Below, piece after piece: positions 29,074-39,810 of a DNA stretch of 50,184 nucleotides. Position 1 is the first letter of the stretch. Each line of letters starts with the position of its first letter. Origin of the DNA: a bacterium (lineage in GTDB: Bacteria; Armatimonadota; JACIXR01); contig JACIXQ010000007.1 in NCBI GenBank assembly GCA_014360465.1, forward strand, positions 1 to 50,184, read 5' to 3'. The position numbers and the translations under genes are program-made. The notes beneath the pieces are model-generated. The model was given only the letters and a program-made list of their open reading frames with translations. It was not told the DNA's origin and ran no database searches.

Positions 29074-29832
29074 TTAAGGGATATTATATAGAATTTTCGG
29101 CAAGGGTGGGTACTCATCAGAAGATAGAATTTCGCGGTTAATTTCCTTGCCGTCTTTTAAAAACACCCTGTAAATATTCACCCGGTATCCGCTTTTGGGC
29201 TTGGGGGTTGCTCCCAATTCCCCAATCAGTGTATATTTAGCTGGCTTTATCTCTTCTTCCTCGCTAAGTATCTCAACTTGATAGGGTGGTCTATATCTGC
29301 TGAGAATTTGGACGAGGAATTTATCACCGATTATTCTCGCTCTTATCCTAATGGGTTGAGGAAAATTGTTTCTAAACTTCAAATCCAATTCTCCATAAGC
29401 TACCGCTGCATCCCTTCCTGGGGAGATATAGTTTGGAGCCCAATAATGGGGACCCCTTTCTATTATCTCAAGACCTGCGAGAAGGACTGCATTGTACAGT
29501 GTTGTGGAAGCTTGGCAGACGCCACCTCCCCAAGCTGGGACCATCAAACCGGTGTAGCTTACAGGTGCCTTTCTGTAGCCTTTCTCCCTGCTCCATGGAC
29601 CGACCGCTTTATTGAAAGAAAAAATATCCCCTGGCTTAATTATAATCCCATTGAGCGTTTTGCCTGCGAGGTCAAGATTGTGTATCTGGTTTGGTGTTCT
29701 GCCCTTCAAAGATGTGGCAAAGCTTGCTATGACTTTTTCACGGCGATATATAATCGCCCCTACCAGGAGAAAGAAAAGAAGAATAAGCCAGGGGAGTACA
29801 AATAAGCAGTTCTTCAATCTGCCGGTCATCAT
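29074..29832 (-). CDS. VanW family protein
   Basis: NQIHNLDLAGKTLNGIIIKPGDIFSFNKAVGPWSREKGYRKAPV...GGGVCQASTTLYNAVLLAGLEIIERGPHYW...AAVAYGELDLKFRNN. Confidence 0.92.
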   Translation of the reverse strand: MMTGRLKNCLFVLPWLILLFFLLVGAIIYRREKVIASFATSLKGRTPNQIHNLDLAGKTLNGIIIKPGDIFSFNKAVGPWSREKGYRKAPVSYTGLMVPAWGGGVCQASTTLYNAVLLAGLEIIERGPHYWAPNYISPGRDAAVAYGELDLKFRNNFPQPIRIRARIIGDKFLVQILSRYRPPYQVEILSEEEEIKPAKYTLIGELGATPKPKSGYRVNIYRVFLKDGKEINREILSSDEYPPLPKILYNIP

Positions 29833-32800
29833 TTTAACTTCACCTTATTGCTGTTCCCGATGCTCCAGTATTGAGGGAAATACATATTGTAGAGGAAAGT
29901 CGGCATAACCCTGTAAACTCCTTCCGTTTCCGTTCGCAGGCGATAACGGAGGGTGATTTCTTCATTTTTTGTGATATAGGGCAGGTAAAAGGCTACCTTG
30001 TCTCCCAGCTCATCGTAATCGTATAATTCTGAATCATCCGATATTCCATTGAACTCACAGCCGGGTGGAAGAGGTTCTTCAATGATGAAATAATCTCGTG
30101 GAATATCACTTTTCCTGAATTTTAGCCTAACTTCAACCTCAATAAACCTGCCTTTCCTGAACTCCTCGGAAGGGCGTCCTGCTTTCCAGATAAGTCCCTC
30201 CTTAGCCGATACGCTGAGGGGGCGATAAACTCTTTTTATCTCAACACCTCCAAGCCCCCTATTTGGTTTTATCTCGTTTCTTTTTAGAATCTCTTCCAAT
30301 TTGAGGGAATAAAAAAGCTTTCCTCTACCCTGCTTGATGAGTTTGATTTCGTTCTCTCCTGGCTTCAGATGCTTCATATCAAGGTTAATTTCCAGCGGTG
30401 GGTTGAATACATCGTTAGAAGAGAAAGAGAATTGTTTAACAGTTCTGCCATTGACCTGAAGATAAACCCTGAAGCTGGGGTTGAGGTCTTCCCAGATTTT
30501 ACTGAATTCCAGTAAGCAGAGAATGACCTGAGCTGTGTCCTTTGTGGAGAGCCATTTATCACCCCTTTTGAGGGTAAGTATGTAATTGACAGCTTTGACG
30601 CAGGCGAAGTTTTGGGGTTGAAGCTTCAACATAGCCCGCAGTGCCAGGGCTGTTTCTTCCACTCCTCCATATTCTCCTTCCCAGAAGCATATGTTTCCGT
30701 TCTCCTGCCTGTCAGTCCAAAGGCTCTGGAAAACCTCTTTTGCTTTGTCCCTTTTTCCAAGGTTTAGATATGAGAGGGTTAAAAGAGCTTTGCCCTTGGG
30801 AGAAAGCTTTGGGAAAATCTGGAAAAAGTAGTCTAAGAAGGGCGATATATCTTCTCCCATTCCTGTCAAAACATAGAAGGCAAGTAGCCACTGGTCTTTT
30901 TCTCTATGCCCTAATTTGGGCACGACTTCTACCTTCACTTGCTCTTCCATCATCCTTAGGAGGGCATTCTTGCCCTGTTCAAGCGTAGCTAATTTGACGG
31001 GAAATCCCATTTTATTCGCTTCCCAGAGCCCCCACAGGGCGTAGGCCGATGTCCAGGGGAGGGTGTCATCGCTCTTAACCCAGCCCCAACCTCCGTCTGT
31101 ATGCTGGAGATAATAGAGGCGGAAGATACCATTGCTTATCATATCGGGTAGCTCTTTCTCCAGCTTCTCGCTCTTTATTCCTTTTTCCTTAAGAAAACGA
31201 TAGAGTGCTATATCAGGGAGGAATGCATCCACGGTTTGCTCTGTGCAACCATAGGGATATCGGGCGAGATAATCAAGCGCGTTGAAAAGGGAGGATGTGA
31301 TTGACGGGGATAGATTGATTTTTAGTTTCACCGTTGAGGGAATGGCATTTTTATCAATCCTAATTTTTTGAAGGACGGTTCCATCTGTTTGTCCGCTTTT
31401 GCTCTCCTCTTTATGAAGTCCAAATGGAAGAATGGGTATCGTTAGCTTCATAGCATCCTTGAGTCCGCTCTTGGCAAGAGCATAAAGTTGTATAGTCGCT
31501 GACTCTTCGTTCTCCACCTCAATATTCCATTCAACCTTACCTTCTTTTTTTGCTTCAATTACCAGTTCTTTTTGCTTATCTCCCTTAATCCTGACATTTT
31601 CCGCCGAGAGCTCCAGTTTCACCGTTTGTTTCTCATCTGTCCGATTGTGAACGATGCCGGTGATGGTCGTCGTATCGCCTTGCCTAACAAATACAGGCAT
31701 AACAAGGCGCAGGAAGAGGGGTTTCTGGGTGATTATGTTAAGTTTGTTTGCTCCGAATATGCTGCTGAAAGTGTTAGCGATAGCCGTTATTCGCCAGCTG
31801 GTTATTGTATCAGGTAGTCTGAAGCTAAATGAGGCGACGCCGTTTTCATCAGTTAAAAGGGATGGAAGCCAGAAGGCTGTATCGGGAAAGTATTGACGGA
31901 CTTCCTCAGGAGAAAAAGCCTTGTTGACAGGACCGAGATAAATCATCTCTCCCGACCAGCGGGTGATTACCTCCAGCGTATCCCTTAGTGCGAAAAATGA
32001 GGTTATATCCTCATCGGCTTTCTCTTCCATTATCTTAAAGATTGCCTCATCTACTACAGCGATGGAGAGCTCACCCTTAAGTGGTTGCCCCTTTTCATCT
32101 TCTATTTTAACCTTGCAGAAAACCTTGCTCCGCGGTTCGTAAACCTTCTTATCGGTTTCAAGCGATAACTTTAATTTAAATCGGGGTGGGTTAATTGATA
32201 GTGTAGCGCTTTCGCTTAGCAGTTTTCCCTTCCTCACTATCGTCGCCTGAACGAGGAGAAAATAACCATAATCTTTTAGATTAGTTATCCTTATAAGATG
32301 TCTTCCCTTCTCCAGGTTTTTGAACTCGTATTTGTAAAGTTTTCTTCCCTCATAAGTGAGAAGGACAACTGCTTTGTAAGGCAGGTCAAGTAGGAGGAGC
32401 GCTTCATCACCCATTTGATAGCTTCTTCTGTCTGAGAGGAGGCGGGGGTGTTTCAAGGGGCGGGTTAGAGAATAGCGACCCTCCACAAGGGAAGGAAGGG
32501 CAACGAGGGAGATAGTATCAAGGATAGCATCCTTTTCCTTTGCTACCAGTTCATATTCTCCTTCTTCCCCTATCATCAGCTGGATTTTCCTTTTTTCTCC
32601 ATCTTTCATATGCAAGCGCCAGAGCGATTGTTCCTTCTTCTTAGCTTTTTTCCCCGCCCAGTAAATCTTATACAGGATTACTTTTATCTCTCTCCTATCT
32701 TTGAATGGCGAGGAGTAGGAAAGCTCGGCATCCATCTTCTCCCCCACTTTCAAGATTGTCCTATGTAGGGATAGTTTGAGGGTTGAAGGGCTTCTCGTTA

Positions 32801-34451
32801 CTAAAAAATTAGTGCTGGCTTGAGCGGTGCGATTGGCAGTATCGGTTACTGTGACATTCACAGAATAGATGTAATCTCGCATCCTGCCGGGCTCCCTTTC
32901 TAAGCGAAGTGAAATAGTTGCCTTCCCCATATTGTCCGTTTTCGTCGTTGCCATCCGCACCATCTCTCCATTTTCTTCCTCGCCAATAACGGACCCTTCT
33001 TCAAAATATGGTGAGTATGGCGAACGATAAACCTCGTAATCAACCGTTGCTCCAGACACGGGCACGCCGAACAAATAATTCGCCTCCACCTCCACCTTGG
33101 CAGTTTCGCCTACAAGATAGCGTTCCTTATTCGGTTTCAGCTTCACCTCCATTTCCGGTTTTCTGTAAACCGAGACATTAAAATAGCAAATATCGTATGC
33201 TCCAACATCTTTACAGGAAACATTTATACTATAAATTCCCGGCTTGGCAGTGGAGGGGATTTTGAATGAACCCCAGCAACTGCCGAGCCGATTCGTTCTT
33301 AGCTCGGAGATATGGAGGATGTTTTCCTCCTCATCTGTGACCACATATTTAAGTCTGAGCTGGTGGGGAAGTCTGTATTCCTCATTTCTCAGTGCCCTCA
33401 CGATGCTCTTGAAATAGACCGTTTGACCGGGACGATAGATGGGTCTTTCTGTGTAAGTATATATTCTGTAGCTGGTTTCTCCCCTTCGTGGGTATTCATA
33501 TTCCCAGATGGCAAGAAAGGCATAGGAGGGTCCAATTTTACCAACAATTTTACAAGGTCCGGTATACTTTCCTTCCCATAATCCCATGCTACTCGTTTTG
33601 CCTGTTATGATTTCGTTTCTTCTCTGAACCATTATATCCACACCCTCCAGGGGGAAGCCTTTCTCAAGGTCTGTTGCCCAGAGTAGGATTTTTTCTCCAT
33701 CCTGCTTAAGGATTAGGGCGAGTGATGTTACGAGGAAGATGAGACTTGATTTCACTATGCCCGAGCTGGCGTCCAGAATATAAAGACCAGGTGGTAAGTA
33801 AGGGATTTTGCCGCCCCAGTTGAAGGTGTCCTCAGGGTCCCTCTTTATATTTTCCTCCCAGCTTTTAACCAGTTCCCGGGGCAGGGAAAGCTCTGCGGGT
33901 GTTCCTGGCTGACGCCAGGGATAAATGTATTTCCCTAATTCAAACAATTTTGCTACTGGCAATTCTTCCAATTTGAAACGGTAGAGAGTAAGGTGTAGTT
34001 TTTCCTCCGGAGCGTATCCGCTTGCCCAGACCCTAACGGATTCTCCCGTGTGGAATACGGACTTATCCGCCCAGATGGATATGCTCGTCTCCGAACGGCT
34101 CAACTTAAGAACGATTTTCTTCCTTTCGCCTTCTTTTATCTGGACATATCTTTCCCTTTCGTCGGCGAGATAGTGGGCGGAGGATTGGCAGTAGAGGAAA
34201 TATTTACTTGCCGGAATGCCAGCGAGTAGGAAGTGTCCCTCTTCATCGGTCTTTGCTTTATAAGCTCTCTTAAAATCCCACGCCTCGGGGGAGAGGGAAA
34301 CCTCGGCTCCTTGGATTGGTTTTCCGTTCTCTCCCGCAAGCACTATTCCTTCAATAGAGCCCAACGGTGTCTCCATCTTTATGAAGAAGGCGAAAAGAGT
34401 ACCTATCCAGACGAGCGCTATTAAGGATAAAAAGAGCTCATTTCTCTTCAT
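29829..34451 (-). CDS. Bacterial alpha-2-macroglobulin family protein with thioester motif
   Basis: TYTERPIYRPGQTVYFKSIVR; SLLTDENGVASFSFRLPDTITSWRITAIA; YPYGCTEQTVDAFLPD (CxEQ thioester); GGWGWVKSDDTLPWTSAYALWGL. Start set at MKRNELFLSLIALVW. Confidence 0.92.
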   Translation of the reverse strand: MKRNELFLSLIALVWIGTLFAFFIKMETPLGSIEGIVLAGENGKPIQGAEVSLSPEAWDFKRAYKAKTDEEGHFLLAGIPASKYFLYCQSSAHYLADERERYVQIKEGERKKIVLKLSRSETSISIWADKSVFHTGESVRVWASGYAPEEKLHLTLYRFKLEELPVAKLFELGKYIYPWRQPGTPAELSLPRELVKSWEENIKRDPEDTFNWGGKIPYLPPGLYILDASSGIVKSSLIFLVTSLALILKQDGEKILLWATDLEKGFPLEGVDIMVQRRNEIITGKTSSMGLWEGKYTGPCKIVGKIGPSYAFLAIWEYEYPRRGETSYRIYTYTERPIYRPGQTVYFKSIVRALRNEEYRLPHQLRLKYVVTDEEENILHISELRTNRLGSCWGSFKIPSTAKPGIYSINVSCKDVGAYDICYFNVSVYRKPEMEVKLKPNKERYLVGETAKVEVEANYLFGVPVSGATVDYEVYRSPYSPYFEEGSVIGEEENGEMVRMATTKTDNMGKATISLRLEREPGRMRDYIYSVNVTVTDTANRTAQASTNFLVTRSPSTLKLSLHRTILKVGEKMDAELSYSSPFKDRREIKVILYKIYWAGKKAKKKEQSLWRLHMKDGEKRKIQLMIGEEGEYELVAKEKDAILDTISLVALPSLVEGRYSLTRPLKHPRLLSDRRSYQMGDEALLLLDLPYKAVVLLTYEGRKLYKYEFKNLEKGRHLIRITNLKDYGYFLLVQATIVRKGKLLSESATLSINPPRFKLKLSLETDKKVYEPRSKVFCKVKIEDEKGQPLKGELSIAVVDEAIFKIMEEKADEDITSFFALRDTLEVITRWSGEMIYLGPVNKAFSPEEVRQYFPDTAFWLPSLLTDENGVASFSFRLPDTITSWRITAIANTFSSIFGANKLNIITQKPLFLRLVMPVFVRQGDTTTITGIVHNRTDEKQTVKLELSAENVRIKGDKQKELVIEAKKEGKVEWNIEVENEESATIQLYALAKSGLKDAMKLTIPILPFGLHKEESKSGQTDGTVLQKIRIDKNAIPSTVKLKINLSPSITSSLFNALDYLARYPYGCTEQTVDAFLPDIALYRFLKEKGIKSEKLEKELPDMISNGIFRLYYLQHTDGGWGWVKSDDTLPWTSAYALWGLWEANKMGFPVKLATLEQGKNALLRMMEEQVKVEVVPKLGHREKDQWLLAFYVLTGMGEDISPFLDYFFQIFPKLSPKGKALLTLSYLNLGKRDKAKEVFQSLWTDRQENGNICFWEGEYGGVEETALALRAMLKLQPQNFACVKAVNYILTLKRGDKWLSTKDTAQVILCLLEFSKIWEDLNPSFRVYLQVNGRTVKQFSFSSNDVFNPPLEINLDMKHLKPGENEIKLIKQGRGKLFYSLKLEEILKRNEIKPNRGLGGVEIKRVYRPLSVSAKEGLIWKAGRPSEEFRKGRFIEVEVRLKFRKSDIPRDYFIIEEPLPPGCEFNGISDDSELYDYDELGDKVAFYLPYITKNEEITLRYRLRTETEGVYRVMPTFLYNMYFPQYWSIGNSNKVKLK

Positions 34452-35881
34452 TTTTCTTTCTCCTTCCCGCGTGCGAGAAGATAGACGAGGAAGCAAGCGA
34501 GGGGCACAGTGCCCAGTGTGATGTAGAATTTGTGCACCCTCTTCAGCTCAGCTGATAGAGGGGATAGCAGAGGTGTGAGAAGGATAGCCAATAGGAGGAG
34601 AAAGATAGCAAAGGATGGGAAAGCGAATTCCTCTCCTCTCAAGTAGAGAAAGAGAAGGATTATGGAACCGATAAGAGCACCGGCGAAGATACCTACCGAA
34701 GCGTTTAAGCCGTAAATAGCGACGAGAAAGGAGAAAATGATGAGTGATAATAAGGAGATGAGTAATTTGTTAAGTGGGGTGCGTTTTTCTTCCATAGGTA
34801 GGATTAGAAGTAGAATGACGCCGGTGAGCAGACCAAGGAAAGGGAAGAAATCGTAAAAGCTGGGAATGGCAACAAATGGCGCTGTAGAGAAGAGCTGATA
34901 AAAGATGCGAAAAATGGCGAGGATCGCGATTGAGAGAAGAAAGAGATTGAAAGTTCTCTTCGCTTTCGGATTGTCTTCTGAAAAGATGAGGGCGGAGAAA
35001 GGAATGAGGGAAAGACCAGCGAGGCAGACGCCATAGGCGCGTAAGAGACGAAAGGATATGGCGAATAGACCGAGAAGAAGGAGGACCACGACTATTGATA
35101 TTCTCCTTTCATCTTTCGTCTCCAAAAGAAGCAGGGTGACAATTGCTCCTGTTACTGACCCTGCCGAGCTCACAAAGAAGAAGGGCAAATGATGAAAATA
35201 GAAATAGGAAAGGGCAAAGATGAAGGTTAAAAAGAAAAGGGTAACGAGGAGTAGCCTTATCATTTTGCTTCCTCGTAAAGAAGCGAAGAAGGAAAGAAGA
35301 GCGATGGCGGATAGCGAGAGGGGTAAGAGATACCATAGTTCTTCCGGAAGCTTCTTTTCGCTCATTGCGGAGTGAAAGACGCCGAAGGTAAGGGCGAGGG
35401 CAAGAAGGAGGGCAACATTCTGTGCCCATCCAATCTCGTCGGGGCGTTCTTTGAGGAAGGCGCTACTTAAGAAGGTGATTAGCGAGAAGGCGATGAGGAA
35501 ACCGAAGAGAAAGATTGGCAGGTCATAGGGAAGGAAATAGGCGATGACGATGAGAAGGAGGGGAAGGCTGGTGGATGAGAGAAGAGAGGGAGGTGGATAG
35601 GAAGAAGCTGGAAGGCGGAGGGAGAAAAGGAGAAGGGTGCCGCTTAACCCACCGAGAAGGATGCCTATCCCAAAACCTCGTGAGGAGAAGCCTTGCCAGG
35701 CGGGGAATGGCGGTTTGAGATAATAGAAAACAAAAAAGAGTAAAGGGATGGACCATAGCAGGATTTTAAGAACGAAGAAAGGGGGTATCTTTAACCGGGC
35801 TTCTTTTTTCCTGCTCGCGAATAGAGCGAACAGAATACCAAAAAAACTAACTGCAATCACTGGAACGAATTGCCAATCCAT
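34448..35881 (-). CDS. Polytopic integral membrane protein of unknown function
   Basis: Many consecutive hydrophobic segments; stop overlaps the A2M start. Start at MDWQFVPVIAVSFFG (35881) or 35968. Confidence 0.75.
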   Translation of the reverse strand: MDWQFVPVIAVSFFGILFALFASRKKEARLKIPPFFVLKILLWSIPLLFFVFYYLKPPFPAWQGFSSRGFGIGILLGGLSGTLLLFSLRLPASSYPPPSLLSSTSLPLLLIVIAYFLPYDLPIFLFGFLIAFSLITFLSSAFLKERPDEIGWAQNVALLLALALTFGVFHSAMSEKKLPEELWYLLPLSLSAIALLSFFASLRGSKMIRLLLVTLFFLTFIFALSYFYFHHLPFFFVSSAGSVTGAIVTLLLLETKDERRISIVVVLLLLGLFAISFRLLRAYGVCLAGLSLIPFSALIFSEDNPKAKRTFNLFLLSIAILAIFRIFYQLFSTAPFVAIPSFYDFFPFLGLLTGVILLLILPMEEKRTPLNKLLISLLSLIIFSFLVAIYGLNASVGIFAGALIGSIILLFLYLRGEEFAFPSFAIFLLLLAILLTPLLSPLSAELKRVHKFYITLGTVPLACFLVYLLARGKEKEK

Positions 35882-36030
35882 ATTCTTTTTCCCCTTTCTT
35901 AAAAAAGATGGTAGTGCCTTTATGCTTTCCACTTTGTCTTCCCTCAATATAGCAGAGGGAAAAATCACGATAATTTAGCGCTATCCAAAGTTTGCTAAAT
36001 ATTAGATACATCAGGTGAGTTAAAAGTTTC

Positions 36031-37908
36031 TCAACGGTATTTCTCCTCTGCTAAGAGGCTTTTGGCAGTTTCTCTTATCTTCGCCTGCTTATCTTCTCTT
36101 GCCAGTTTTTTAATTAAGCCGATTATTTCTGGGAACGATTCCCTACCATTCCAAAGGTTCTTAAGAAGTTGTATTCTCAATAGCTCATCGTCGCTTTTCA
36201 GTAATACCTTTTTATGGATTTGATATGAGGAACTGCTCATCTTTCTGAAACTCAAAGAGAGTGCCGCCTGAAGCCTTACCGAAGGTTGGGGGTCTGAGAG
36301 GATTGCTTTGAGCAGAACATCCTCTGCTTCTTTGGTCCAAATGAACCTCATAGCCCATAAGGCAGTAGCCCTTATCTCCGGCGATTCTTCCTCAGAGAAT
36401 TTCAGAAGAATGGGAAAAGAGCGGTTCAAGCCGGCATTCCCTAAGCAGAGAAGCAGGAGGGTTGTTTCCCTTATGGAGGATGACGAATTCAATCGGTCAA
36501 TGAATTTATCCACTATCTTCTCCGATATTTCATTTGAGGAGTCCCTAAGTCTATTAGCCATAATGCCGAGAACGAGCTGGGCGGTAGAGGGGATTTCAAA
36601 ATCTTCCTCATTGAAAGCCAATTGCGAGAGTTCATCTACTATGGCAGGGATGGGTCTTTTGATATCAGCAAGGGAGTAAATAACGGGAAGGAGAATAGAA
36701 GGGTTTTTTCTGTTGGTCCTGACGAAGCGGAGAAGAATTTCCTGTGCCTGGGAATTTCCCACCGCGCTGAGAGCTTCAAGAATAAGCTTTTGTGAAGGTT
36801 TTAGCTCCTTGCTGTTCAGAAGAATTTCCTCTATTTTTTCACAATCATCTGGATGGAGGTAGATAAATGCTTTCAGCTTAAGATAAAGTGATAACGAATC
36901 TTTGGTCTCACCTTGCTCTATTTCGCTTAACTCTCCGAGAAGGTTATCCAACTTAGTATCGCCGAGGATTTTCCTGTAGATGGTTTCCTCTCCACCGGAA
37001 AGTTTTTGATAAAGGGGAAGTTTTCTCAACAGTGTTTTTCTCTCTATATAAACATTCTGTAGAGCCGAAGTTTCGGCTTCACTTATATTCTCTATTGAAA
37101 TAAGATTTAGGATTACATCGGTTTTGATATTCCCTACCTTTCTATCTACGATGAAAATTTCCAGCTCGTCATTTCCTTTCAAAGAGATTGGTTTTCCTAC
37201 CCTGAAAGCGTATTCAATGCGAATCTCTCCCTTGGGAACGATTTTGGGGTTTAATTTTGGTTCTTCATCAGCTTTTTCAGCGGATTTATAGCTTATTTTG
37301 CTTTTGATAAATGAGATGGTGTCCTTCCCTCCCACGAGCTTTTTGTAAGTAGCCTTATATATGCCCGATGGGTCTGTTTCTTCGGTTTGCCAACACTCCT
37401 CCCTGAAACTTTCTGGAGAGACGATTTGGAAAAAGGAGAGGAGTGTTCTGATATAGCCATCAGCAACCCCACAAACGCTATCTTCAATCTCAAGATAAAG
37501 TATTTTTCCGGATTTAGCAAAGGCAATGTAAAAAGGCTTTTCCATATCTCTTTTGATTGTCAATTCGTCTTCGTGGGGATGCAAATGGTTGAGTTCAAAA
37601 TAAAAGTAGTTTAGCTTTAACTTGCAATATAAAATGACAGCGTCTTCTTTATCTATGAAAGGAAGGAAAAAGACCTCTCCCGATACGATTGTGCGAAGAT
37701 CCCCAATGGCCCCAGGGATAATCAATGGGTTTCCCTCGCTTGTTTTAAAAATCCTTCCGAAATCATAAGATGACTCACACCGATAGCGAAAGCTATAGAT
37801 AAGCTTTTCCCCACTTTTAAAATCATAAAAAGAATTTGCCCTTGCGGGTGTCTCAAGGTTTGTAATTAGTAAAAGTAGCGAAAAAAGGTAAAAGGTTTTC
37901 AGTTTCAA
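36031..37908 (-). CDS. Secreted vitellogenin-N/MTP-like (large lipid transfer protein module) and HEAT-repeat protein
   Basis: Signal peptide; GEKLIYSFRYRCESSYDF..., SGKILYLEIEDSVCGVADGYIRTLLSFFQ, WQTEETDPSGIYKATYKKL, then helical repeats with LLLLCLGNAGLNRSFPILLKFSEEESPEIRATALWAMRFI...VRLQAALSL. Confidence 0.65.
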   Translation of the reverse strand: MKLKTFYLFSLLLLITNLETPARANSFYDFKSGEKLIYSFRYRCESSYDFGRIFKTSEGNPLIIPGAIGDLRTIVSGEVFFLPFIDKEDAVILYCKLKLNYFYFELNHLHPHEDELTIKRDMEKPFYIAFAKSGKILYLEIEDSVCGVADGYIRTLLSFFQIVSPESFREECWQTEETDPSGIYKATYKKLVGGKDTISFIKSKISYKSAEKADEEPKLNPKIVPKGEIRIEYAFRVGKPISLKGNDELEIFIVDRKVGNIKTDVILNLISIENISEAETSALQNVYIERKTLLRKLPLYQKLSGGEETIYRKILGDTKLDNLLGELSEIEQGETKDSLSLYLKLKAFIYLHPDDCEKIEEILLNSKELKPSQKLILEALSAVGNSQAQEILLRFVRTNRKNPSILLPVIYSLADIKRPIPAIVDELSQLAFNEEDFEIPSTAQLVLGIMANRLRDSSNEISEKIVDKFIDRLNSSSSIRETTLLLLCLGNAGLNRSFPILLKFSEEESPEIRATALWAMRFIWTKEAEDVLLKAILSDPQPSVRLQAALSLSFRKMSSSSYQIHKKVLLKSDDELLRIQLLKNLWNGRESFPEIIGLIKKLAREDKQAKIRETAKSLLAEEKYR

Positions 37909-37920
37909 TCTTTAACCACC

Positions 37921-39810
37921 CTATTTTGCCTTTGCTGGCGCTCCTTTTAACTTCAGTGGCAGATAGAATTCTATCTCACCGTCCTCACCCTTGAGTGTTA
38001 TTCTATCCCCTCTTTTGCCAACAGCATCCCCAGTGAAGGTGCCTTTCTCAAGGTCGTAGATAAGCACGATGTCCTCTCCAGTCGGGTCTAAATTGAGGCG
38101 ATGGTTCACCTCCATAATACCCTTCTCCCTATCTGCCTTTCTCGGTCCCCACACTTCCATAACTATGACAACCTTCTTATCAGAGGGAGGAATTATCTCC
38201 TTTTGCCATTTTATCTCCTTTCCGAACCAGATGAACTCATCAGTTGGAGAAGCAGGTTCATCAAGAGCGCTATAGGCGGATGTGCCGAAGAGAATGGTGC
38301 AGAAACCAGCCGGATAAGGTGTCTTCAAACGAGTGACAACGACAGATACGGTCTCCTTAGAGAATTGCTGCCCTGTTATCAAGCTTTGAACATATTCCCT
38401 AGGTCCTATTATGTAACCGTTCGTTTTGACTCCATCCCAATTGAATATGTCCCAAGTGAATTTCTTTGAACCTATTAGATAATCAATTTTGGTATATGCA
38501 TAAATACTACCATTTAGCGCTTCCAACTCGTTTAGAGCACCATAACGGACAACGAAGAAAGGTTCATCTCCTGCGAGCTCTATGCCAAGGTCGGTCTGAA
38601 GATTAAGCCGGTCCTTGAGGAAGGTGAGTTCAGCGCCAGCCCCGGCGCTGGCGACGACAACATCCACTCCTGCTTCTGCATATCCCCTCGTGTCAATATA
38701 AGGGGAGAGGATTCCCGAGATATGGGAGGGTGTGAGACAGAAGCCGTAATCAATGCCAACTACTCCCTTAAAACCCAAGGTGACGCTTACCGGGATTGGT
38801 CCTATCATAAAGTTTCCGGTATATGCCTGGTCTATTCCTTTGGATTGGCTATCCTGGTAGGAGATAAAAGTGTCCCGCTCGTCATACCAAAGGTCGTAGC
38901 CTAATGCTCTTATGACTATGGAGGAATTTGCCTTATCTTTGGAAGAGTTCAGCCTTGCTTCACCATAGACTATCTCCGTAGATTCACCAAAAAGGTAGCC
39001 AGTGCCTTTGCCACTTGCTTTTAGCTCTAATTTGTCCTTTTCTCCTTTCATACCAATGTAGGCATCTACTTCAACTGCTAATATATTCTCATCACCCAAA
39101 CTTTTTGAATATGAATTTTCCAATTTCAGCTTTTTAATCCCTTGAGGCTTTGCTTTTGCTGTTTTATTCTCCACCATTTCTGCAATGCGCTTGGCTGTTT
39201 CCATCTGTTTCTCCATTGCCTCTGGGCTGAGGGCGACAGGGCTTATAAGCGGTTTAGGCGTGAGGAGCGTGAAGTTGGGAGTCATCAACGCTTTCTGGCT
39301 TAGGCTTGGAACGAAGAAGTTGGGCTTTTGGCTGACGCTTCCCAAAAGGACCTGGCGGGTGCGGTCAAAGACATCCTTGTTCAACTTGCATATTTGAATT
39401 GTGACATCACCAGGCTCTCTTAATGAATAGCCAAGCTCGTTGAATTTTCTTTCCAGCTCGTTCATTTGGGCGATGAAATCTTCCGCTTTTAGCTTTGCTC
39501 CATTTTCCAAAATAACCTCGCTCTGTGGTGCAAGCTTGAGCTCCTCAAGAGTGAAGGGTTTGAAGGGAATGGGATTTCTTTTTATGATATTCACCAGATT
39601 GGGATTAAACTGAATAGGGGTTCTTCTAATTATTAGTTGAGGAGTGATTTTTAGCCCTTCTGCTGGAAGGTTCAGCTGGGGCTGGGCAGGAAGATAAAAG
39701 GGAAGCGTGAGCAGAAAAGCTATTAGGAAAAAGCGAAGTATCCATAGCCTATCAGCTTTTCCCAGCACCTCCATATTTACCGTCTTGACAGTTTTCTTTA
39801 TTAGCCTCAT
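37921..39810 (-). CDS. Secreted beta-rich protein of unknown function
   Basis: Signal-like TM segment ILRFFLIAFLLTLPFYLPA; beta-rich middle (IPVSVTLGFKGVVGIDYGFCLTPSHISGILSPYIDTRGYAEAGVDVVVASAGAGAELTFLKDRLNLQTDLGIEL). 13 nt upstream of the next gene. An internal start is possible. Confidence 0.7.
   Translation of the reverse strand: MRLIKKTVKTVNMEVLGKADRLWILRFFLIAFLLTLPFYLPAQPQLNLPAEGLKITPQLIIRRTPIQFNPNLVNIIKRNPIPFKPFTLEELKLAPQSEVILENGAKLKAEDFIAQMNELERKFNELGYSLREPGDVTIQICKLNKDVFDRTRQVLLGSVSQKPNFFVPSLSQKALMTPNFTLLTPKPLISPVALSPEAMEKQMETAKRIAEMVENKTAKAKPQGIKKLKLENSYSKSLGDENILAVEVDAYIGMKGEKDKLELKASGKGTGYLFGESTEIVYGEARLNSSKDKANSSIVIRALGYDLWYDERDTFISYQDSQSKGIDQAYTGNFMIGPIPVSVTLGFKGVVGIDYGFCLTPSHISGILSPYIDTRGYAEAGVDVVVASAGAGAELTFLKDRLNLQTDLGIELAGDEPFFVVRYGALNELEALNGSIYAYTKIDYLIGSKKFTWDIFNWDGVKTNGYIIGPREYVQSLITGQQFSKETVSVVVTRLKTPYPAGFCTILFGTSAYSALDEPASPTDEFIWFGKEIKWQKEIIPPSDKKVVIVMEVWGPRKADREKGIMEVNHRLNLDPTGEDIVLIYDLEKGTFTGDAVGKRGDRITLKGEDGEIEFYLPLKLKGAPAKAK

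Follow-up and report, generated by a model that had tools for sequence, protein, structure and literature searches.

Background

In animals, large lipid transfer proteins (LLTs) serve as fat carriers, as in lipoprotein assembly and egg yolk, and we know of no clear account of how the family originated before animals. In MTP, an N-terminal barrel (residues 18-297) is followed by a helical domain that extends to residue 603, a C-sheet (604-717) and an A-sheet (722-886) (PMC10907164), and residue N479 contacts the lipid-binding C-sheet (PMC7444587). Other LLTs include vitellogenin and lipovitellin (PDB 1LSH, 9ENS; PF01347) and apoB-100 (beta/alpha1 region, PDB 9BD1), the latter being a single chain of 4536 residues that makes lipoprotein particles. 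No earlier description of a bacterial LLT was found in the open-access literature, and PF01347 entries from bacteria may exist in databases.

The window analysed here is a stretch of 50,184 nucleotides (contig JACIXQ010000007.1) from a 2.69 Mb genome of the phylum Armatimonadota, and it contains two adjacent genes, P0001 and P0002, that are best called a split LLT-like system. The best fold match of both proteins was the large subunit of MTP (PDB 6I7S/8EOJ), to which the pair is similar in having a colinear beta-barrel and superhelix, a conserved asparagine and a partner core of approximately the length of the MTP sandwich. MTP is, however, one chain as opposed to two bacterial genes, the identity is approximately 17%, and the partner is unrecognisable when compared with PF19444. 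MTP forms a complex with protein disulfide isomerase (PDI), whereas the bacterial pair has no known PDI partner. P0001 shares with vitellogenin and lipovitellin a PF01347 match above the cut-off, an LGNAG motif and a fold match, but the bacterial barrel/helix module is free-standing and neither a DUF1943 nor a von Willebrand D domain was found in its chain. The apoB-100 region was likewise among the fold matches of P0001, whereas the bacterial locus does not encode a protein of apoB length. Bacterial HEAT-repeat proteins (PF13646, alphaRep designs) are related in the sense that the C-terminal repeats of P0001 match HEAT_2, but these proteins do not align with MTP and have neither the N-terminal barrel nor the partner gene.

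Position and layout of P0001

The 625-residue open reading frame on which the original prediction was made is real and all of the peptides quoted from it are present (Table 1). Its TTG start codon has a GGTGG site 7 nt upstream and lies 12 nt behind the stop codon of the upstream gene. The N-terminus is a hydrophobic, signal-like segment that ends, from reading the sequence, in ARA ahead of NS, and this predicted start indicates that P0001 is probably exported past the inner membrane. An AF2 model built from a 15-member alignment (pLDDT 87) consisted of the beta domain, with a helix at residues 147-158 inside it, and then helices to residue 624. Positions conserved within the P0001 family were G134, Q161, W173, E177, G182 and Y188. 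The C-terminus falls near the end of the MTP helical domain, leaving a chain without the lipid-binding beta sandwich.

Table 1. Features of the P0001-P0002 locus and its downstream genes, in window coordinates
Feature	Position	Strand	Basis
P0001 (625 aa), LLT N-terminal module gene: signal-like segment, beta domain and helical superhelix	36031..37908	-	ORF; PF01347 (4e-16); fold search
P0001 residues 1-25, signal-peptide-like segment, TTG start, LKLKTFYLFSLLLLITNLETPARA	37834..37908	-	Read from sequence
P0001 residues 34-274, beta domain, counterpart of the LLT N-terminal beta-barrel	37087..37809	-	AF2 secondary structure; L037 beta domain alone matches PF01347
P0001 residues 134-161, GK-x-L...R-x-LLSFFQ strand-helix motif, aligned with a 28-letter MTP segment	37426..37509	-	hhalign; family conservation
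P0001 residues 277-624, alpha-helical superhelix, counterpart of MTP 298-603	36037..37080	-	Pfam; PDB-sequence profile search; AF2; Foldseek; HEAT controls
P0001 N491 in the LGNAG motif, equivalent of MTP N479	36436..36438	-	Alignment; role of N479 from PMC7444587
P0002 (629 aa), conserved partner gene, proposed lipid-binding beta-sheet half	37921..39810	-	Adjacency in 21 loci; fold search
P0002 residues 228-476, beta core with 13 predicted strands of 8-29 residues each; pLDDT mostly 67-90	38383..39129	-	AF2 model
P0002 residues 80-130, conserved motif RxPIxFxPF..DPxTG..P...I.L.NG.K..A..YY..LN..E...N..GYSLR	39421..39573	-	Alignment A6
P0002 residues 479-629, C-terminal extension	37924..38376	-	
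Multi-spanning membrane protein (506 aa)	34448..35968	-	
Bacterial alpha-2-macroglobulin	29829..34496	-	

Sequence similarity to Vitellogenin_N and MTP

A Pfam search matched PF01347 (Vitellogenin_N) to residues 316-552 of P0001 at 59 bits (E = 4e-16; cut-off 24), in a region that overlapped with a match to HEAT_2 (E = 3e-14). PF01347 was not relied on alone because it can match plain HEAT proteins, and such proteins, from the window's own genome as well as from that of a congener, exceeded its cut-off. Searching PDB sequences with a 15-member profile (A1) found human MTP at 1.7e-10 over residues 342-556 of P0001 (about 215 residues), while the remaining matches were mostly designed repeat or HEAT/armadillo proteins, some of which outscored MTP via multiple repeats. 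A 23-member profile was aligned to human MTP by hhalign with a probability of 93% and a score of 63-64 over 460 colinear columns, in which residues 120-620 of P0001 corresponded to 100-585 of mature MTP. Decoys consisting of reversed and shuffled MTP scored 16.3 or less with the same profile, at probabilities near zero, and generic HEAT controls (14 proteins and a HEAT profile) reached a score of no more than 22.4 against MTP, as compared with 63-64 for the P0001 family. The MTP letters used in these comparisons were verified against PDB chains 8eoj_B and 6i7s_G.

The sequence signal between P0001 and MTP was located mainly in residues 300-625. The beta domain of P0001 taken alone was below the PF01347 cut-off in Pfam and was not significant by hhalign against the single MTP sequence, and the beta domain of the relative at locus L037, which contains no HEAT repeats, passed PF01347 by itself (24.9 bits, E = 9.7e-6). 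Two pairings proposed in the original prediction, those of SGKILYLEIEDSVCGVADGYIRTLLSFFQ with the 28-letter MTP segment and of EETDPSGIYKATY with EVDISGNCKVTY, were returned by hhalign in the same register. The resemblance of the helical half to vitellogenin, also part of that prediction, was confirmed by the PF01347 and human MTP matches, with generic HEAT controls behaving differently.

Predicted fold of P0001

In a Foldseek search of the P0001 model against the PDB, the top seven of 1543 matches were LLTs (E = 6.7e-21 to 2.9e-8) including MTP (6.7e-21 and 4.6e-20, and 2.3e-14 for 8eoj), lipovitellin (4.9e-15), honey bee vitellogenin (5.2e-14) and apoB-100 (3.6e-11 and 2.9e-8). A generic HEAT alphaRep was the best match outside the LLTs (4.1e-7). 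The alignments covered about the whole chain, with 629 columns for MTP and 662 for lipovitellin; TM-scores against LLTs were approximately 0.5, as for a two-domain hinged chain, and the barrel match was scored only within the whole chain. A viral fold library searched as a negative control gave no LLT-like match.

The features that define an LLT were found in part. An N-terminal beta-barrel with the strand-helix-EE..G..Y signature was indicated by the AF2 model, the whole-chain fold, the register with MTP and the L037 beta domain, the P0001 beta domain alone not being significant by sequence, and the alpha-superhelix of Vitellogenin_N type was indicated by the PF01347 and MTP matches together with the negative HEAT controls. 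The C-/A-sheet lipid-binding sandwich was absent from P0001, which stops after the helices, and no bacterial gene with a fused barrel/helix and sheet was found among the family members. Homology of the barrel/helical module to LLTs is well supported, and P0001 is a homologue of the LLT N-terminal module but, having no lipid-binding domain in its chain, is not a complete LLT by itself. The original prediction had described a region ahead of the helices with an LLT layout and a prokaryotic relative of an animal lipid-carrier fold, and both descriptions hold, as PF01347 and LLT folds were recovered and not merely generic HEAT matches and an unrelated fold. The present finding is larger in that P0001 ends before the sandwich and the conserved gene beside it appears to provide that part.

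The partner gene P0002

P0002 was without a Pfam or NCBIfam match, and neither PF19444 (MTP_lip_bd) nor PF09172 (Vit_open_b-sht) was matched when the partner loci of 15 genomes were searched. No similarity between the P0002 and MTP sequences was detectable by hhalign, and when the partner was aligned globally with the C or the N segment of MTP, hhalign yielded no result better than shuffled sequences did. The P0002 model was moderate overall (mean pLDDT 57) and many of its strands were long and amphipathic. Only four PDB matches reached E ≤ 1e-3 in the fold search, all of them LLTs with a probability of 1.00 (MTP at 2.3e-5 and 9.8e-5, lipovitellin at 2.3e-5 and bee vitellogenin at 4.0e-4), although the model was a moderate one, TM-scores were 0.14-0.23 and the matched MTP region was not reported. 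The next match was to a pore protein (6.7e-3, probability 0.21). The beta core of the partner is 249 residues long compared with 283 for the C-terminal sandwich of MTP. Because of complementarity, size and strand lengths, P0002 appears to be the lipid-sheet half of an LLT, an identity judged from the modelled fold and not from a sequence match to PF19444 or PF09172.

The partner was also considered as a second LLT barrel and this was rejected, as it did not resemble the barrel family of P0001; the position of the fold match was not readable. The motif at residues 80-130 of P0002 is, as a guess, a candidate docking element. The C-terminal extension of P0002 was absent in most relatives and poorly modelled.

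A possible link between the two halves was seen in the LGNAG motif of the P0001 family, which aligned with LKN of MTP (477-479) such that N491 corresponded to N479. N491 was retained in 17 of 20 family members. Its retention in a chain without sheets is consistent with docking on sheets that belong to another subunit, and is supportive of such docking but not proof because the asparagine is present in vitellogenin too.

Distribution and conservation of the gene pair

The survey covered the three phyla Armatimonadota, Cyanobacteriota and Acidobacteriota, and the two genes were adjacent at 21 loci, distributed over 20 genomes (16 Armatimonadota, 3 Acidobacteriota and 1 cyanobacterial MAG). The partner was upstream and on the same strand at all but one of these loci (20/21), the pair at the remaining locus being tail-to-tail. 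That arrangement belonged to an Acidobacteriota locus (L092, 6611-10212). The partner was present in 17 of the 291 Armatimonadota genomes searched. Profile searches of Cyanobacteriota and Acidobacteriota gave low counts of at least 1 of 244 and at least 3 of 247 genomes, which are lower bounds because scoring was limited to five candidates in each genome and HEAT proteins can occupy some of these places. Two congeners (G206 and G207) were without the pair, making its presence patchy inside the genus. Clustering of the flanking genes identified no third conserved gene near the pair, leaving the partner as the sole conserved neighbour.

The partner gene at locus L039 (11105-14887, minus strand) was fused to PD40 propeller repeats, and the partners at three further loci (L040, L041 and L044) had weak matches to the Ig-like Big_1 domain that were below the Pfam cut-off. 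As judged from sequence, both proteins of the pair are probably exported, with several of the partners carrying such surface-type domains (PD40; sub-threshold Big_1).

A proposed split LLT model and alternative explanations

The computed results were the open reading frame, the homology of the helical domain to MTP and Vitellogenin_N, the LLT-like fold of the whole P0001 chain, the conserved gene pair and the LLT-like fold matches of the partner, and from these we infer a physical complex, a cavity, secretion, lipid binding and a direction of transfer. We give a probability of roughly two in three to the reading that the locus is a split, two-gene bacterial counterpart of LLTs, with an exported pair in which the superhelix cradles the partner sheets around a lipid-carrying cavity. 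P0002 and P0001, encoded side by side, would both be exported across the inner membrane, with P0001 folding as the LLT beta-barrel and alpha-superhelix and P0002 supplying a core of amphipathic beta-sheet that corresponds to the C-/A-sheet sandwich. The superhelix would then wrap the P0002 sheets, Asn491 would dock on the C-sheet in the manner of MTP Asn479, and the assembled pair would form a hydrophobic cavity and carry envelope lipid, either across the periplasm or in the extracellular space. On the broader proposal, that a two-subunit prokaryotic LLT system assembles in the envelope and that such a split pair is ancestral to the animal single-chain LLTs (MTP, vitellogenin, apoB) or has a common ancestor with them, we consider the odds to be even.

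It is conceivable, though unlikely, that P0001 is genuinely related to the LLT module but works without a lipid cavity, for instance as a periplasmic scaffold or receptor platform, and that the neighbour is an unrelated client of surface or adhesin-like type that is exported or assembled with its help. The LLT barrel has receptor-binding and other non-lipid roles (PMC12496180), the PD40 repeats or sub-cut-off Big_1 matches of several partners are like those of surface proteins, and the partner sequence matched none of the LLT lipid-binding families. A client of this kind would nevertheless have as its best and only significant folds the same LLTs, a core close in size to the missing domain (249 versus 283 residues) and a P0001 in which the helix-to-sheet docking residue is retained. 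A pore-like nature of the partner is quite improbable, in which it would be an outer-membrane beta-barrel or pore-like protein and P0001 a periplasmic plug or lipid feeder comparable to LptDE or pore systems. The long, amphipathic strands of the partner are consistent with this and its second-tier fold matches include MAC/perforin pores and porins, but those matches had E values of 6.7e-3 or greater and mostly low probabilities (0.21 at best versus 1.00 for LLTs), and the strand pattern of the core and the N-terminal helical region are unlike a closed porin.

We regard it as very improbable that P0001 is an ordinary secreted HEAT protein with an unrelated beta domain and that its vitellogenin signal is HEAT cross-talk. 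The concern arises from the PF01347 matches above the cut-off on plain HEAT proteins of the same genome and a congener, and from the HEAT_2 match in P0001 itself. Cross-talk was largely refuted by the decoys and by the HEAT controls, the latter not aligning with MTP, and in the whole-chain fold search LLTs outranked every HEAT structure. The HEAT-free L037 beta domain matched PF01347, and the partner independently retrieved LLTs. The fold search, the L037 beta domain and the HEAT controls together argue that P0001 does not consist of HEAT repeats only.

The split LLT reading suggests that bacteria may possess a two-gene version of a family regarded as animal, and a bacterial homologue with a whole-chain LLT fold makes a pre-animal origin of LLTs testable. 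If the reading is true, an LLT can be divided into a cradle subunit and a lipid-sheet subunit that assemble together, and the few known lipid transporters of the bacterial envelope would be joined by a new type of carrier. Expression and dissection may also be simpler with two-gene LLTs than with MTP.

Neighbouring genes and additional observations

Contamination by eukaryotic DNA was rejected as P0001 is located among bacterial genes (Mrp/NUBPL-type ATPase, VanW and bacterial A2M), and it is also contradicted by relatives of P0001 in three bacterial phyla. The A2M gene downstream of P0001 encodes MG2, A2M and bMG domains and a CTEQ thioester-like motif, and the very hydrophobic membrane protein between it and P0001 had no family match. 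Neither of these two genes had relatives at the other pair loci. Rfam and tRNA scans gave no matches, neither promoters nor terminators were more numerous than expected by chance, and a contig scan of the genome with one protein as the query found nothing.

Contig C89 of the same genome (L051) carried four consecutive long HEAT-repeat ORFs, one of which was above the PF01347 cut-off while being HEAT-only by the control, indicating that a PF01347 label on bacterial HEAT proteins can mislead. In genome G174, a 1299-aa protein (L090, 1761-5657, minus strand) contained the C-terminal region of the partner and had no LLT-like gene nearby. The L039 partner contained a dockerin-like stretch, GDVNGDGIVDDRD, that was seen by eye.
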